Below are positions 1,061-33,038 of a DNA stretch of 50,369 nucleotides, in pieces. A program made the position numbers and the translations under genes. How positions within the stretch are numbered: position 1 is the first letter of the stretch; each line of letters opens with the position of its first letter. Source of the DNA: Thermoplasmata archaeon (GTDB taxonomy: Archaea > Thermoplasmatota > Thermoplasmata > Thermoplasmatales > Thermoplasmataceae); NCBI GenBank assembly GCA_021820565.1, contig JAKADL010000002.1, positions 1 to 50,369 on the forward strand. Reading direction: 5' to 3'. The notes beneath the pieces were generated by a model. The model worked only from the letters and a program-made list of their open reading frames with translations. It was not told the origin of the DNA and did no database searches.

Positions 1061-4008
1061 TGCTGATCACCTTTTGAAAGAACATTGTATGCCTTCTCAT
1101 CCAGTGGTTCTGCGCTTGTTGTGAACCTTAACCATCCCTTTGGATAATCGCTATCCTTGGCATGCTTCGGTATTCTGAGCTTATACAGGGCATAGGCTAC
1201 ATCAGAAGTTCCGGGGACCATTATTTTTCTTACTGAATCAACGATAATATGGCCGCTGTAGAAAAACGCACCATCGAATTGGTTAAAATCTTTGTTTAAG
1301 CGATAATACAGGGGTTCTGTTTCCCTGTCCCTATACCGATAATCCATAATCATTGGGGCGTGTTCTGATTCATTAACAGGCTTTCTTGTTGCCTTATTTT
1401 TCTGATCTTCCCTTTCCTCTATGAGTGATTGCTTTACTGGTCCATCTGGAAGGCTGTCAATATCTGAATTGCCTGGATTCTGGGTTCCTGTGTTGTCAAT
1501 GGTGCTATTTCCGGTATTGCCAGGTTGTGTAGCCTTGTATTCTTTGATCTTCCTGTCGATGTCTGTTGTAGGTATATTTAGATCTTCAAGGGTTTTCTTT
1601 ACACTCAATAGTTTCTGAAGTTCTGGATCCACTGACTCTTTCAGGGGTTTATGATTTGTTAATTTGAACCCGATATAAACCGGCGAATTGTTATGACCCT
1701 TTGCATCTCTGTGGAAGTTCAGGTCTTCACGTAATTTCAGAATATCAGTAAACTTCAGCTGAAATGACCTGAGGTTTTTGACATTCATAGACGGGTCGAT
1801 AGAATTCATCTGACAAAAATCCAGAAACTTCTTGTAAAGGTCAGCGGGGGTATATTCATCCTCTCCTGGTTCTATATTTTCATCTACCCATGCCTTAATC
1901 GGGTCAGATTCAAGGGTGTACAGGCGCTGCTTGTCTTCTAGATTTTGCGTACTTGAGAATTTAAAGCCGTTAGATTTCAGTCTTTTCAAACCTTCCATAG
2001 CCCAGTTAAAGATCCCTGGAAGTTCTTCTATGAGTTCATTTGCAAGATTGGGGTTTTGATCTGTGATATGGGACTCTTTGTAGTTTATAATTAGGATCCT
2101 TGAAAAGAAACTATCGGTTTCACTATCGTTTAATGCAATTTTAGGCAGAGAATTCAGGGCGAATAAGAGTTTACCAGTATAAATAAAGGCATGTGGGACC
2201 CTATATTTTTCATTGGCCCATATTAAATCCATTCCACTGAACTTTTTTAAGTTTGATATGTGCCTAAGCTCATTTGGTGGGGTTTCCCCATCTATGTTAA
2301 CTAGTTTCCCTTCCAGACTTGCCAGGTTATGCCCAAGATCATCCTTTGAAAATAGTGCCGCCGCTGGAACCGCAGAGATATTATTTTGCCCTAGTAAGTG
2401 TGTTATCACTGTTAAAGTAGTGCCCTTACCAGATCTTGTCGGGCCTTTCAAAATCCCAAAATTCTGCGCGGGAAGCCCGTTGTAAAAAATGTATCCTATA
2501 TATTCTTGAAGCACTGGTATGTCTGTATTTTGAACAGAGGAATTAAGGAATTTGAGCCATTTTGAACATGTTGCTGCTGGATCATAATCAAAATCAAATT
2601 TTCTAATTATGAACATATCCTCTGCATATTTCATTATCTCATGGGCTCTGAAATTGTAAATGTAATCGTTGTTGAATTTGATATATTGTGTAGCTTCATC
2701 AAATGAAATAACTTCCGCAAGATCAGAGATCTGGTGTATAATCTCCTCTTTGGCTTTCGTTGATATGGTGTTGCTGTAAATATAATTTAAAATCGACCTT
2801 ATTTTTTGATTGTTAGAGTTGCTGAAAAATAACGGGTTTTCTTGTGTCTTGATGTAAATTTCAGGTTCTATGATTTCTGAGGAGTTGCTGCTGCTTTGCT
2901 TTATCAGCGTGCATTTTAATAGTTTCGCCAAGGAAGTATATACGATTTTATGCAATTTCTTGACTATTGCTGTTTTTTCATCCTCTTTTAAATTTGCAGT
3001 AGATATTTGAATATGGAGTTCGTGAAGTTTTTCAATTCCATAGGTTGTGCCGTTATTGTATGCATCCTCAATGAATGTTACAAAATCGGTATTTTGCGGG
3101 AAAAAATCCATTACCTTCTGGATTTCCATTTCTGTGGCACCGGACTCTTTGATTTCCTTTATTAGTGTTGGAAAACCGAAGATATGGGTACCTAAATTTA
3201 TTCTTTTGAATGAATCTTTTATAATACCAAAATGAGGCTTCCATCCCTTTTCTTTTGCAAAAATTCCTAGCATTTTGAGTAAGTTCTGCTCCGAATATCC
3301 TTTATAAATAAGGCTTCCGAAGGCACTCTCCTCGAGTTTATTTCCAGATATATTGTATTTTTTCCTAATTTCCTCTATCAAATTAAAAAAATCGATAATA
3401 TTTCGATTACCGGCATCTGATTCTGTGATCTGGATTTCGTTGCGTTTTTCTATTTCTTCCTGGTGAGTTGCAAAATACCAGAAACGATATAGTTCCATAG
3501 GCATTTCCGGAATTTTATCTAATGAACCATGGATAATTTTATATTCGTTTCCATTGGGATGAATGGATCCAGGAGCAACCACATAACCACCATTCCCACG
3601 AACGTCAAGGCCTTTAATCCCGCCGATATCTGTTGAATTCCGCAGGTCAGCGGGCATGCCTTTGGGAATACCCCAATATATGTGCAATCCCCCGGAACCA
3701 GTCCGGATAATCACGGCACCAGGGTATGTTTTTATAAATGCTTGAAGATCTGGCAAATTTAGAATTTTGAGAAATTTGGAAAGGGCGTCTGTGCCGGGCT
3801 TTTTATCGATATCGTATGGATATAGTTTGGATTTTTCACCGGTAGCTATTCCGATATTTTGCGTCTGCCATGATCTTATAATATTGACATCTGTCGTAGC
3901 ATCGTTTACTCCTCTTGAACCTGGAAACGGTACTTTGGATTTCTCGGGCAGTAGGAACACAGCAAAATTGTTCTTTATGAACTCTTCGGTATGCTCGTTT
4001 TTTACCAT
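1057..4008 (-). CDS. Bifunctional primase-polymerase (PrimPol) / D5-like superfamily 3 helicase, replication protein of a mobile element
   Basis: N-term PrimPol motifs (IGIATGEKSKLYPYDID, VIIRTGSGGLHIYWG, GLDVRGNGGYVVAPGSIHPNGNEYK); C-term SF3/D5 Walker A GPTRSGKGTTL, LVNIDGE, LLFALNSLP. Confidence 0.9.
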   Translation of the reverse strand: MVKNEHTEEFIKNNFAVFLLPEKSKVPFPGSRGVNDATTDVNIIRSWQTQNIGIATGEKSKLYPYDIDKKPGTDALSKFLKILNLPDLQAFIKTYPGAVIIRTGSGGLHIYWGIPKGMPADLRNSTDIGGIKGLDVRGNGGYVVAPGSIHPNGNEYKIIHGSLDKIPEMPMELYRFWYFATHQEEIEKRNEIQITESDAGNRNIIDFFNLIEEIRKKYNISGNKLEESAFGSLIYKGYSEQNLLKMLGIFAKEKGWKPHFGIIKDSFKRINLGTHIFGFPTLIKEIKESGATEMEIQKVMDFFPQNTDFVTFIEDAYNNGTTYGIEKLHELHIQISTANLKEDEKTAIVKKLHKIVYTSLAKLLKCTLIKQSSSNSSEIIEPEIYIKTQENPLFFSNSNNQKIRSILNYIYSNTISTKAKEEIIHQISDLAEVISFDEATQYIKFNNDYIYNFRAHEIMKYAEDMFIIRKFDFDYDPAATCSKWLKFLNSSVQNTDIPVLQEYIGYIFYNGLPAQNFGILKGPTRSGKGTTLTVITHLLGQNNISAVPAAALFSKDDLGHNLASLEGKLVNIDGETPPNELRHISNLKKFSGMDLIWANEKYRVPHAFIYTGKLLFALNSLPKIALNDSETDSFFSRILIINYKESHITDQNPNLANELIEELPGIFNWAMEGLKRLKSNGFKFSSTQNLEDKQRLYTLESDPIKAWVDENIEPGEDEYTPADLYKKFLDFCQMNSIDPSMNVKNLRSFQLKFTDILKLREDLNFHRDAKGHNNSPVYIGFKLTNHKPLKESVDPELQKLLSVKKTLEDLNIPTTDIDRKIKEYKATQPGNTGNSTIDNTGTQNPGNSDIDSLPDGPVKQSLIEEREDQKNKATRKPVNESEHAPMIMDYRYRDRETEPLYYRLNKDFNQFDGAFFYSGHIIVDSVRKIMVPGTSDVAYALYKLRIPKHAKDSDYPKGWLRFTTSAEPLDEKAYNVLSKGDQQ

Positions 4009-10646: not shown

Positions 10647-12653
10647 ATGAATTCAAATCAACTTTTTAAAATCAGGAAAGGAGAGCCATTTCAGGATGCT
10701 GTTCCGGCAAACCTGAAGAATAACATTATTGCTGCCAGGTTAAATGGAAAATTATACGATCTGCTGGACACATCTCCTGAAGATGGAAACGTGGAGTTCA
10801 TAAAAATTAGCTCACCGGAAGGTGAGAAAATACTCTTACACAGTGCAGCACATCTCCTGGCAAATGCTATAGTAGAATTGTATCCGGATGCCCTTCCCAA
10901 CACGAGCAACGAGGGGGAGGATACATTTTATTATGACTTTAATATGCAGCCCATATCAATAGAAGACTTCCCTGCAATAGAACAGAAAATGCAAGACCTC
11001 GTACATAAGAATATAAAAATAGAGAAAAAAATTCTACCGAAACTGAATCTGCTGGAAGAATTTTCCGGGAATAAATATAAACAGGACAAGATCAATGAAA
11101 ATGTAGAGGATGGCAGTGAATCCAGTATGTACATTCAGGGCAGCTACAAAGAGTTCTGCAGAGGCCCCCATGTACCATCCACCGGATTCGTGAAGGCATT
11201 CAAACTTCTTTCAATATCAAGTACCAATTATGAGGGGGATGTTAACAAGGAGAGAATGATCAGGATTTATGGCACTGCATTCCCTGACGGAAAACAGCTA
11301 AGGGAGTTCCTGCAGAGAAGGGAAGAGGCCATTAAGAGGGACCACAGAAAGATCGGCCAGGAAATGGATCTGTTTACATTTGATAATGAGCGGGCCCCGG
11401 GTATGCCATTCTATGCTCCGAACGGCGCAATAATCAGGAATGAGCTCATAAATTATATGAAGGAAATAAACACAAAAAGTGGATGGGAGGAGGTATGGAC
11501 AGCCCATGCATTCAAGGATATTATATGGAAGCAGTCGGGTCATTATTATAAGTACAAGGATGACATGTTCCTGTTTACACTTCCTAACGGAGATAGTTAC
11601 GGACTGAAACCCATGAACTGTCCCGGGCATATAGCAATTTTCCAGAGAAATATTTACAGCTACCGTGATATGCCAATAAAATACTCTGAAGCAGGCACCG
11701 TTTACCGGTACGAAAAATCCGGGGAGATGGGAGGATTAACCAGGCCGAGGGGATTTACCATCGATGATGGGCATGGATTTGTAAGGGAAGACCAGATTTA
11801 TGATGAAACTGTATCCCTTCTTAAAATAATTCCATCAATTTTCAAAACAATAATGGGCATAGATGAAATTACCTATGATCTAAGTGTTATGGACAAAGAG
11901 CATTCTGAAAATTATCTAATGTCATATAAGTGTTCATCCTGTGGTGAGAAATTCATGCTAAGGGCAGCATCACAGGAATACAAATGCCCGAATTGCGGAT
12001 CAGCCGATCTAGCGGCAGATTTCACCATGTGGGATGATGCAACGGAAAATCTGAGAAAAGCCCTGGACGGCCTTAATCTTAAATATACCGAGTATCCAGG
12101 TGAGGCGGCATTCTACGGGCCAAAGATTGATGTGCACATAAAGGATGCACTGGGCAGGCAGTGGCAGCTATCAACGATACAGATTGATTTCTTCATGCCC
12201 GGCAACTTCGATCTTTACTATATAGACAGCAGTGACAAAAAGGTCAGGCCTGTAATTATCCATCGTGCAATATATGGGAGTTATGAACGTTTTATAGCTA
12301 TTCTCCTTGAGCATTTCAATGGAAAACTTCCACTGTGGCTGACGCCAATACAGGCATATGTCATTCCAGTATCTGAAAACTACATTGAATATGCAAAAAA
12401 TATCCATCAGAAATTAATAGAAAATGGGATAAGATCAAAAATTGATATTTCAGATGGCACCATCTCCAAAAAGATCAAATTAATAAGGTCAATGAGGCCC
12501 GCCTACATTATTGTTGCCGGGGAGAAGGAGTATAACAATAAAAGTGTCTCGGTAAGGAATCGCAGCGACAAGACCAGGGAATATGGCATGGAAGACTTCA
12601 TATCCACGGTATTGAAGGAAATAAAGGATAAGGATATAGACCAGGCATTTTAA
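10647..12653 (+). CDS. thrS: Threonyl-tRNA synthetase (with inserted zinc ribbon)
   Basis: HSAAHLLANAIVELYP, MNCPGHIAIFQ, RPRGFTIDDGHGF, GEAAFYGPKIDVHIKDALGRQWQLSTIQIDF, RPVIIHRAIYGSYERFIAILLEH; likely start is the ATG at 10647 (track start 10638). Confidence 0.95.
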   Translation: MNSNQLFKIRKGEPFQDAVPANLKNNIIAARLNGKLYDLLDTSPEDGNVEFIKISSPEGEKILLHSAAHLLANAIVELYPDALPNTSNEGEDTFYYDFNMQPISIEDFPAIEQKMQDLVHKNIKIEKKILPKLNLLEEFSGNKYKQDKINENVEDGSESSMYIQGSYKEFCRGPHVPSTGFVKAFKLLSISSTNYEGDVNKERMIRIYGTAFPDGKQLREFLQRREEAIKRDHRKIGQEMDLFTFDNERAPGMPFYAPNGAIIRNELINYMKEINTKSGWEEVWTAHAFKDIIWKQSGHYYKYKDDMFLFTLPNGDSYGLKPMNCPGHIAIFQRNIYSYRDMPIKYSEAGTVYRYEKSGEMGGLTRPRGFTIDDGHGFVREDQIYDETVSLLKIIPSIFKTIMGIDEITYDLSVMDKEHSENYLMSYKCSSCGEKFMLRAASQEYKCPNCGSADLAADFTMWDDATENLRKALDGLNLKYTEYPGEAAFYGPKIDVHIKDALGRQWQLSTIQIDFFMPGNFDLYYIDSSDKKVRPVIIHRAIYGSYERFIAILLEHFNGKLPLWLTPIQAYVIPVSENYIEYAKNIHQKLIENGIRSKIDISDGTISKKIKLIRSMRPAYIIVAGEKEYNNKSVSVRNRSDKTREYGMEDFISTVLKEIKDKDIDQAF

Positions 12654-28901: not shown

Positions 28902-30500
28902 ATGAAAGTTCTGGGACTGGAAGGAACAGCCCATACCGTAAGTGCAGGAATCGTTGATGAAACCTCTATATTATCAAATTATTCTTCTACTTACATTCCG
29001 GATAAAGGCGGTATACATCCCAGGGAAGCCGCAATACACCATGCCGATAATATTGTACCTGTAATGAAGCAGGCATTTGACCAGTGCCATGCAAAACCGG
29101 AAGATATTGACCTGGTGGCATTTTCAATGGGTCCGGGTCTGGGCCCATGCCTCAGGGTAGTTGCTACTGCCGCACGTGCGTTCTCTATAAAATACAATAT
29201 TCCTGTAATTGGTGTTAATCATCCACTGGGGCATGTGGAAATCGGAAGAAAGCTTTCAGGGGCAAAAGACCCTGTCATGCTATATATTTCAGGGGGGAAT
29301 ACACAGATTATAGCCCATGAAAACAACTCATATAAAGTTCTGGGCGAAACCATGGATATTGGACTGGGCAACATGCTCGACAAGTTTGCCCGGGATCTGA
29401 ATATACCCTTCCCAGGTGGTCCTGTAATAGAAAAAATGGCATTAAGGGGAAATAAACTCCTGAACCTGCCCTATTCGGTAAAGGGCATGGATACATCGTT
29501 TTCCGGGATATACACTGCAGCAAGAAACCTTATTGGAACAGAAAAATCTGAGGATATCTGTTACAGTGTTCAGGAAACAACATTTGCAATGCTCGTGGAA
29601 GTTCTGGAAAGGGCACTTTACTATACAGATAAGGAAGAAATACTGCTGGCAGGCGGTGTGGCAAGGAATGACAGATTGAGGAATATGGTGGAGCAGATGG
29701 CCATATCATCCGGTTACAGGGCATATCTTACCGATAAAAAATACTGTATGGATAATGGTGCCATGATTGCCCAGGCAGGCATGCTGATGTATCTTTCCGG
29801 TCAGAGGCAGAGCATAATGGATACAAAGGTGAACCAGAAATTCAGAATAGATGAGGTTGAAGTTCCCTGGATTGACTCAAATGAAACAAAAGTGAACAGC
29901 AACAGGGGAGCAGAGGCGTCCATAGATGACACTGAATTTTACGGAAGGAAAACCATTAAAAAAACCCGCATGGAAAAAAATTACAGAAATAAAGATCTGG
30001 ACAGGAGGATCAGAAATGAACGCATCAGAAATGAATTCAATATACTCTATAAATTGAAGGAAAAGGGAATAGACGTACCTTTGATTTATGACTTTGATCG
30101 TTATGATTTTTCAATAACAATGGAGAAAATTGAAGGTATAACACTAAATAAATTCATAAGAGAAAACAAATTTTACGAGGATAAAATCAAGGATCTGGGT
30201 AGAATAATAGCCAGGATGCATAATTTATTTCTTTCCCACGGGGATCTGAACCCGAATAATATAATGATATCAGGGAATAGAATATATTTACTTGACCCCA
30301 GCATGGGGAATATAAACTGTACAGTTGAAGATATGGCTGATGATATATTTCTCCTCACTGAATCCTTTAAAAGCCTGTTTTCAGGATACAGCCGGTTACT
30401 GGAAGAAATATTCCTGAAATCATATATGGCCGTATCGGATAATTCAGAGTTGGTAATGGGCACACTGAATGAAATTATTCAGAGGCGGAGATACGTATAG
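28902..30500 (+). CDS. Kae1-Bud32 fusion (tRNA t6A biosynthesis, KEOPS)
   Basis: Kae1: [57 protein letters not shown]; Bud32: [39 protein letters not shown]. Confidence 0.95.
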
Positions 30501-30534: not shown

Positions 30535-31089
30535 ATGTGCATGTTAAAATTCATAACAAGCAATGAACATAAATATCTGGAAGTTTCCGTTGCCTTTGAG
30601 AAGGTGGGATTGCCACTATCCTGGTACAGAAAAAAATATGAGGAAATACAGGCAGATGACAACGCTGTTATCTGCCGGGATAGCTGTATTAAACTGGGCA
30701 AGGATATAGAGCAGCCATTTTTCATAGATGATACCGGGCTTTACATAGAACAGTTGAATGGATTTCCAGGTCCATATGCATCATATGTGCAGGATACAAT
30801 CGGAAACACCGGCATAATTAAACTGGCTTCGGGGTCAAATGCATACTTTAAGACGGTTATTTCCCTAATGCAGGATAATAAAGTGCAGCAATTTACAGGA
30901 ATCTTAAAAGGGACAATTGCAGATAAAGAAAACAACGGAAATAAGTTTGGTTATGATCCAATATTCATCCCGGACGGATACGATCTGGCCCTTTCCCAGT
31001 TATCACCTGCAGAGAAAAATTTAATATCCCACAGAGGCAAGGCAATCAACAATTTGATAAATTTTCTTATTTTAAATAATATAAGATAA
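30535..31089 (+). CDS. rdgB: XTP/dITP diphosphatase (RdgB/HAM1)
   Basis: KFITSNEHKYLEV, IQADDNAVICRDS, FFIDDTGLYIEQLNGFPGPYASYV, GYDPIFIPDGYDLALSQLSPAEKNLISHRGKA. Confidence 0.95.
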   Translation: MCMLKFITSNEHKYLEVSVAFEKVGLPLSWYRKKYEEIQADDNAVICRDSCIKLGKDIEQPFFIDDTGLYIEQLNGFPGPYASYVQDTIGNTGIIKLASGSNAYFKTVISLMQDNKVQQFTGILKGTIADKENNGNKFGYDPIFIPDGYDLALSQLSPAEKNLISHRGKAINNLINFLILNNIR

Positions 31090-31204
31090 ACTACCGTGGT
31101 CTCCACTGAATATCCTGTCTTAAAATCAAAAGAGAATATATATTCCATATTCATTGGAAAATTGCCATTGCAAATGCCCCGGTAACTTTTCTTAATAAAA
31201 ATAA

Positions 31205-31220
31205 ACTTATATATTAATAT
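31205..31220 (+). promoter_or_regulatory. Putative archaeal TATA box upstream of structured RNA / S6e operon
   Basis: aacttatatattaatat about 25-30 nt upstream of the start of the structured, GC-richer stretch. Confidence 0.5.
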
Positions 31221-31231
31221 ATAATCCAGTA

Positions 31232-31430
31232 TCGCCCACACCTGAAATGGTAAGGCGCTCTCTTGTAGAGTAATATAAGAAAGCTGTGGAGTGATTCCCG
31301 GAAGGGATAATGAATAGCCTCCCACCCTGACCTAGAGGCGTCAACCAGCTATAAGCTTGCCTGTATGATAGGTAAATGCAGTTGAACGACGGAAACATGA
31401 TCAGGAATAAATAAAACTCAAGGTGTAAAT
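31232..31430 (+). ncRNA. Candidate structured RNA: leader of the S6e/aIF2-gamma operon or an independent ncRNA
   Basis: GC-enriched in an AT-rich intergenic; helices CTCT/AGAG (31258-31270), TCCC-GGAA-GGGA (31296-31307), GCCTC/GAGGC (31317-31339), TCAAC/GTTGA (31341-31345/31381-31385) enclosing AGCT-ATA-AGCT and CCT/AGG; 5' ACACCT can pair with AGGTGT just before the S6e ATG. Confidence 0.5.
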
Positions 31431-31431
31431 T

Positions 31432-31821
31432 ATGGTTGTAGCAGTAGTTGCGGACAGGAAAACTGGAAAAACGTATAAAAAGGAAATTTCAGAGGATGTT
31501 CTGGGTTCCCTTGCTGGAAGAAAAATAGGAGAAGAAATAGATGGTATATTTTTTGAAATGCCCGGATATAAATTGAAGGTTACAGGTGGAAGCGCAAATG
31601 ATGGCTTCCCAATGAAAAAGGATTTATCCATCGCCGGGAAGAAAAGAATACTTGTATCTTACAATTCAGGCAGGAAGGGTAAAAACGGCATTAGAAAAAG
31701 GGTTACATTCAGAGGAAACATAATAGGTTCCGACATTTCACAGCTGAATCTTGTGGTGACACAGTATGGAACAAAACCTCTTGATGCCGCTGAAGAAGAG
31801 GAACAGAAAGGAGAACAGTAA
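31432..31821 (+). CDS. rps6e: Ribosomal protein S6e
   Basis: VVADRKTGKTYKKEISEDVLGSLAGRKIGEEIDG...MPGYKLKVTGGSANDGFPMKKDL...RKRVTFRGN. Confidence 0.95.
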   Translation: MVVAVVADRKTGKTYKKEISEDVLGSLAGRKIGEEIDGIFFEMPGYKLKVTGGSANDGFPMKKDLSIAGKKRILVSYNSGRKGKNGIRKRVTFRGNIIGSDISQLNLVVTQYGTKPLDAAEEEEQKGEQ

Positions 31822-33038
31822 TGGAACAGCCTTCCGTTAATATTGGCATGGTCGGGCATGTGGACCATGGAAAGAGTACTTTAACTTTTGCACTCACAGG
31901 TAAAAAAACCGATGTTCATTCAGAGGAAGTTAAGAGAGGCATTTCCATAAAGCTTGGTTATGCCGATACACCCATATACCGCTGTAAGGACGAAAACGGC
32001 AAGGAAACTTATTCAAATAAAAAATTATCTGATAATTGCCAGCTTTCCAGGGTAATTTCGATTGTTGACGCACCGGGCCATGAAACTCTAATGGCGACAA
32101 TGCTCGCAGGATCGGCAATCATGAATGGGGCTATCCTGGTTATTGCAGCCAATGAATCCTGTCCGCAACCGCAGACCAGGGAACATCTAACTGCTCTGGA
32201 AATCATGGGTATTAAGGAAATAATTGTAGTACAGAACAAAATAGATCTTGTTACCCGTGAAAGGGCTCTTGAAAGTTACAATGAAATTAAAAGCTTTTTG
32301 AAAGGCAGCATTGCTGAAAATGCTCCGGTAATTCCAGTCAGTGCCTATCATAATACCAATATAGACATAGTTCTGGAAGCCATAGAAAAAATTATCAAAA
32401 CACCTGCATTCAGGGAAGACGATACGCCTATGATGTATATCGCCCGATCTTTTGATATCAACAAACCAGGAACATCTCCCTCTGATCTGAAAGGCGGGGT
32501 ACTTGGTGGTGCACTTATAAGAGGAAAATTAACCGTGGGTGATGAAATAGAAATTTCACCGGGAGTCCAGGAAACAAGGGGTAATAAAACTGTGTGGGAA
32601 AATGTCACCACAAAGATAACATCATTGATGGCCGGATCATCCTCCTACAAATCAATAGTACCCGGTGGACTGGCTGCCGTGGGAACTGAACTGGATCCAT
32701 TTTTAACCAAAGGTGACTCATTTACAGGTCGTATAGTTGGATTAAAAGGTCATGTGCCGAAAACAGTATTTAACCTTGAAATGGATATACACTTGCTGAA
32801 CCGGGTTGTAGGATTTGATGAAGAGGTCATAGTGGAGCCCCTGAAACCAAACGAAATAATCATGCTGACAGTGGGCACTGCCAATACTATAGGTTCAGTA
32901 ATATCTATAAAGGATAACAAAGTAAGTGTATCTTTAAAATACCCGGTTGCCGCAAATATAAACGACCGTATGGCAATAGGCAGGCGTATATCCAACAGAT
33001 GGCGCCTTATAGGTTATGGTTCTATCCTGAATATCTAA
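31821..33038 (+). CDS. eif2g: Translation initiation factor aIF2 subunit gamma
   Basis: NIGMVGHVDHGKSTLTFALTG, SIVDAPGHETLMATMLAGSAIMNGAILVIAANE, VVQNKIDLV, RSFDINKPGT, KGGVLGGALIRG. Confidence 0.97.
   Translation: MEQPSVNIGMVGHVDHGKSTLTFALTGKKTDVHSEEVKRGISIKLGYADTPIYRCKDENGKETYSNKKLSDNCQLSRVISIVDAPGHETLMATMLAGSAIMNGAILVIAANESCPQPQTREHLTALEIMGIKEIIVVQNKIDLVTRERALESYNEIKSFLKGSIAENAPVIPVSAYHNTNIDIVLEAIEKIIKTPAFREDDTPMMYIARSFDINKPGTSPSDLKGGVLGGALIRGKLTVGDEIEISPGVQETRGNKTVWENVTTKITSLMAGSSSYKSIVPGGLAAVGTELDPFLTKGDSFTGRIVGLKGHVPKTVFNLEMDIHLLNRVVGFDEEVIVEPLKPNEIIMLTVGTANTIGSVISIKDNKVSVSLKYPVAANINDRMAIGRRISNRWRLIGYGSILNI

Follow-up and report, generated by a model that had tools for sequence, protein, structure and literature searches.

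A probable decayed ORF-less IS200/IS605-superfamily element with a conserved structured RNA upstream of the S6e and aIF2-gamma genes of a Thermoplasmata archaeon

The genes encoding ribosomal protein S6e and aIF2-gamma in a Thermoplasmata archaeon are preceded by a stretch of about 190 nt with several local helices, for which an earlier note, made from the DNA letters, proposed either a cis-acting leader or riboswitch-like element controlling the two genes or an independent non-coding RNA of no familiar family. The question raised by this locus is what the stretch is, and whether it belongs by origin to the genes that it precedes. The window analysed here is the whole stretch of 50,369 nt from a contig (labelled C81) of a 1.59-Mb archaeal draft genome (G000) that is 91% complete; the genes it carries and their arrangement are consistent with Thermoplasmata. 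The features of the locus are as follows.

30535–31089, plus strand: Ham1/RdgB-type pyrophosphatase gene (PF01725), upstream of S6e
31192–31256, plus strand: kept block of 65 bp, with the promoter region and the first ~22 transcribed nt (64/65 positions identical to G005 and G006)
31206–31213, plus strand: TATA-like box CTTATATA, 30 nt before position 31236 (8/8 match to YTTAWAWA)
31234–31275, plus strand: box A, 5' domain of the element RNA, with hairpin CTCT/AGAG (nhmmer E 3.7e-8; start of the R1 match)
31283–31322, plus strand: box B, stem (G)GCTG/(T)AGCC enclosing TCCC-GGAA-GGGA (93% identity to the box B consensus)
31340–31386, plus strand: shortened remnant of a right-end/omega-RNA scaffold, GTCAACCAGC...AGTTGAA (an nhmmer match at 31283–31351 runs into it)
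31387–31415, plus strand: native sequence to the right of the insertion, 29 nt, equal in length to the stretch after TTTAT in the empty site (L030–L032)
31421–31426, plus strand: native Shine-Dalgarno (SD)-like AGGTGT of S6e, also present in empty-site genomes
31432–31821, plus strand: ribosomal protein S6e gene (PF01092, E 3.9e-33)
31821–33038, plus strand: aIF2-gamma gene (PF00009 and PF09173)

Further upstream, a single ORF (28902–30500) joins a TsaD/Kae1 domain and a kinase-like domain of the RIO/Bud32 type, a fusion that is known from other archaea.

The S6e locus and its empty site

The pairing pieces described previously are all present in the sequence, namely ACACCT (31238–31243), AGGTGT (31421–31426), CCTGA (31241–31245), TCAGG (31401–31405), CCACA (31236–31240) and TGTGG (31285–31289), as are TCCC-GGAA-GGGA, GCCTC/GAGGC, TCAAC/GTTGA and the TATA-like box. 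The transcript probably starts near 31235, in agreement with the start near 31232 that had been expected. A covariance model (R1) that does not include the window copy matches positions 31234–31339 (77.1 bits, E 4.7e-26), its sole strong match within the window genome. This match, together with covariation in full-length relatives, argues for the structured RNA that had been proposed, whereas the folding energy is only weakly above chance (z = -1.95 for 31230–31431 and -1.05 for 31235–31450). The alternative long-range pairings put forward for the same stretch fall outside the conserved structure. The TCAAC/GTTGA stem, previously read as a three-way junction, is part of the remnant at 31340–31386, and the same closing stem is found in full-length copies (helix 7).

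Neither a strict nor a permissive Rfam scan yielded a credible match at the locus, as had been anticipated, and no described Rfam leader family matches it. This absence of a match is compatible with an undescribed class of host housekeeping non-coding RNA or riboswitch at a fixed position, but such an identity is very improbable, as the RNA is missing from most same-genus genomes and multicopy elsewhere, and as a general leader it is refuted by the empty S6e sites. SRP RNA was excluded as a candidate because it is found on another contig; RNase P RNA was also considered, but in one locus (L007) the element lies apart from RNase P. In the window genome, which is 91% complete, a scan for archaeal RNase P RNA (RF00373) gave no match at E ≤ 0.001, reflecting either a missing contig or a divergent RNA.

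The S6e site is empty in six genomes of the same genus (G001, G003, G009, G004, G002 and G007), in which only some 100 bp, with a conserved TATAATTTTATTAAT promoter region, separate S6e from the Ham1 gene; the corresponding distance in the window is 342 bp. In most same-genus genomes the S6e promoter is uninterrupted and contains a TTTAT target site, and the insertion is present only in the window genome and three sisters (G005, G006 and G008). The segment from the end of the remnant to ...AATAAATAAA (31387–31415) is 29 nt long, as is the one after TTTAT in the empty site, which places the insertion directly after TTTAT. For another insertion, a joined-flank search found no empty site in relatives. 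The orthologous leaders that have no such stretch, and its dispersal at other loci in other genomes, argue against a leader or riboswitch of S6e and aIF2-gamma by origin. What holds of the original interpretation is a structured RNA with no Rfam match; the independent non-coding RNA came nearest among the options considered, and the actual identity appears to be that of a mobile element.

A conserved structured RNA on the plus strand

Two boxes of the stretch, 31236–31273 (within box A) and 31283–31322 (box B), are found again at unrelated loci of other genera, with a spacing of about 100 nt. An alignment of 25 copies yielded 56 consensus pairs, which are 93.7% paired across the copies, as opposed to 35–51% when the partners are slid, and 25 of the 56 pairs display changes on both sides. 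Double-change cells numbered 90, versus 27.6 ± 4.6 in shuffled alignments, and none of 500 shuffles reached a value as high. The 5' domain has an additional closing helix (GTCCA/TGGAC). For pairs found from both strands, G-U on the plus strand was counted 71 times and A-C (equivalent to G-U on the minus strand) 27 times, and an RNA encoded on the minus strand was rejected on the basis of these counts. Covariation of this kind establishes, at the level of sequence comparison, a conserved structured RNA of ~290 nt, with the strand read here as its coding strand.

The same strand bias bears on HEARO (RF02033; IsrB/IscB omega RNA), which resembles the element in being a mobile structured RNA. HEARO RNA can occur without its ORF. 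Two weak minus-strand Rfam matches to HEARO lie in the same relative place in two copies (L090:201–323, minus, and L098:2925–3049, plus), but they score 22–23.6, far below the gathering score of 83, and are antisense to the RNA, and the right ends of the element are of the TnpB type. An omega RNA of the HEARO/IscB type on the opposite strand is thus scarcely credible, and the antisense matches probably reflect a resemblance between palindromes.

The RNA is widespread, and its copies are mostly located away from S6e. A consensus DNA query detected the family in 31 of 117 genomes of the order, with up to seven matches per genome, and, at the level of the class, a second covariance model (R2) gave matches in 44 of 399 genomes, corresponding to 24 of 104 genera and including other families of the class; partial R1 matches in two loci (L181 and L186) sit in apparent open reading frames and were left out of the count. 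Distant copies in seven genomes (G353, G339, G511, G529, G656, G495 and G385) still have the middle arm, together with a right end resembling GTAGTTGAC, and no tnpB reading frame is evident between their ends, not every listed ORF having been identified. A pattern scan of viral contigs gave no match. A short-form copy, which lacks the middle arm and has only a few nt between boxes A and B, is found on the minus strand of L103 (G001:C88:44479–48271, raw ~2942–3134), in a same-genus genome without the S6e insertion. In another genome (G014), a TPP riboswitch (RF00059, 73 bits; L008:1870–1975) lies within a few hundred bp of an element copy.

Intact elements and their tnpB-bearing relatives

Intact copies in related genomes are ~350–400 bp long and have no ORF. 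Each consists of a left-end palindrome, a TATA-like box, the RNA of ~290 nt and a right end (AAGCCC-hairpin-GGGTAGTTGAC) that terminates in GTAGTTGAC. TTTAT directly precedes the left end in 14 of 20 copies, where about 0.5 would be expected from the flanking sequence, and a TATA-like A+T-rich stretch is located ~33–22 nt before the 5' end of the RNA (p 0.0045 versus shuffles). Stop codons interrupt two or more frames of the 5' domain in each copy, and nearly all copies have them in all three frames. Two types of left-end palindrome (GTGAGCGGGAA... in L087, L089 and L092; GTTAGGAGTTTGAGGG... in L064, L066, L069 and L100) occur with the same RNA and right end, suggesting that left ends have been exchanged between elements.

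The 3' ~95 nt of the RNA of these ORF-less elements correspond to the right end, or omega-RNA region, of tnpB-bearing elements in four of the same genomes. The right-end identity to tnpB elements is 100% over 95 nt for L113, 96% for L110, and 95% for L108 and L130; the last two also have the left end in common with the ORF-less elements. The 5' ~195 nt, comprising box A, the intervening arm and box B, had no match in the compared tnpB loci. In ISDra2, the reRNA consists of the 3' end of tnpB and the right end, with ~16 nt of flanking sequence as the guide, and the motif to the left of the element serves as the TAM (PMC8612924). The ORF-less elements resemble this TnpB omega-RNA/reRNA system in their 3' ~95 nt, right-end hairpin, terminal GTTGAC and 5' TTTAT, all of which match tnpB elements of the same genomes, but differ from the ISDra2 reRNA in that tnpB is absent and replaced by a structured domain of ~195 nt (PMC8612924). 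Judged from the common right end and TTTAT, the ORF-less elements would provide a guide RNA from their own promoter and depend on TnpB and TnpA in trans, the putative use of TnpB being read from the right-end identity.

The nearest described category, as far as the partly covered literature extends, is that of the palindrome-associated transposable elements (PATEs) of Haloquadratum walsbyi, described as transposase-free repeats, some of which are core-deleted transposons (PMC3119063). The elements described here resemble PATEs in being ORF-less and multicopy, with near-terminal palindromes and IS605-related ends, and they have several properties of PATEs and non-autonomous IS200/IS605 elements: no ORF, left-end and right-end hairpins common to tnpB elements, multiple copies and a TTTAT target. 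They differ from PATEs in that their core is a covarying ~290-nt RNA with its own promoter-like box, distributed class-wide, and the available parts of the PATE account mention no conserved RNA (PMC3119063). A literature search, itself of incomplete coverage, found neither a conserved RNA in elements of this category nor a published description of this element RNA.

Transposition of IS605 elements proceeds through single-stranded DNA that bears terminal hairpins. This and the known existence of PATEs (PMC3119063) lend some credit to a reading of the dispersed copies as ORF-less IS605 debris, the folding of which would be relevant only as single-stranded DNA for TnpA. This appears improbable, because the covarying helices are far from the element ends, the G-U changes favour one strand and the promoter-like box is at a fixed distance from the RNA start.

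Fate of the copy at S6e

The window copy is incomplete. About 94 model positions of the middle arm are absent between boxes A and B, no left-end palindrome is recognizable, and none of the inspected tnpB loci of the window genome (L116, L126 and L136) encodes a TnpB with the right end of the element; the mobility of the element in this genome would thus be a thing of the past. A tnpB-domain match at 11907–12005 in the window is below the cut-off. Internal deletions of the shared insertion differ between the window genome and G005, G006 and G008.

The block at 31192–31256 followed a different course. Its borders were set after the alignment had been viewed, and within them 64 of 65 positions are identical between the window genome and G005 or G006, whereas the flanks have diverged and, in the same comparison, 4-fold degenerate sites differ by 44–48% in S6e and by ~61% in aIF2-gamma. 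Identity of this order, set against the divergence of the S6e 4-fold sites, indicates selection on the promoter together with the ~22 nt that are transcribed first, and the block is likely to be a co-opted promoter/leader; a less probable source of the identity is recent exchange between the window genome and the sister species. Since the native promoter of S6e is no longer uninterrupted, the most economical reading is that the element promoter would now serve the operon.

A stronger role for the host, in which box A would now act as a regulatory 5' UTR of S6e–aIF2-gamma, for example by sequestering the SD sequence through ACACCT:AGGTGT as the earlier note proposed, is unlikely. The constraint on the first ~22 transcribed nt equals that on the promoter, the pairing is present in the minimum-energy fold of the window, and both hexamers are kept in the sister genomes, but the predicted leader folds of G005 and G006 do not pair them with each other and the remainder of the leader has been deleted differently in each lineage. 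Furthermore, AGGTGT is native and older than the insertion, and ACACCT is a motif of the element, occurring in most copies elsewhere.

The region 31234–31386 is, with good probability, a decayed ORF-less element of the IS200/IS605 superfamily, the promoter of which now likely drives S6e–aIF2-gamma; judged from sequence, the locus is apparently a fossil element with a co-opted promoter. An intact element would have landed at TTTAT in the S6e promoter in the lineage ancestral to the window genome and the three sister genomes, and the inserted copy would then have lost its left end and internal arms, such that it is probably no longer a working guide RNA. Strong constraint would have preserved the element promoter and transcript start, which most likely drive the S6e–aIF2-gamma transcript today. 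In intact elements, the RNA would be transcribed through the right end into the flanking DNA and may act in trans as a TnpB-type omega/reRNA, with the flank as the guide, and the ORF-less element would rely for its movement and maintenance on TnpB (and TnpA) produced elsewhere. RNA stabilization and protein recruitment are guesses at the role of the extra 5' domain.

More tentatively, Thermoplasmata may harbour long-lived, protein-less RNA transposons that are stand-alone TnpB-type guide RNAs with a ~195-nt domain of separate function, such as recruiting TnpB/TnpA in trans or stabilizing the RNA, one of which would have been domesticated at S6e–aIF2-gamma as a promoter and leader. In most descriptions, the guide RNAs of TnpB derive from the tnpB locus itself. 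If this possibility is correct, class-wide guide RNA-like elements without a nuclease would be natural trans-acting RNA parasites of RNA-guided nucleases. At the S6e locus, the promoter and transcript start of a mobile element have apparently been taken over by the genes of a ribosomal protein and an initiation factor.
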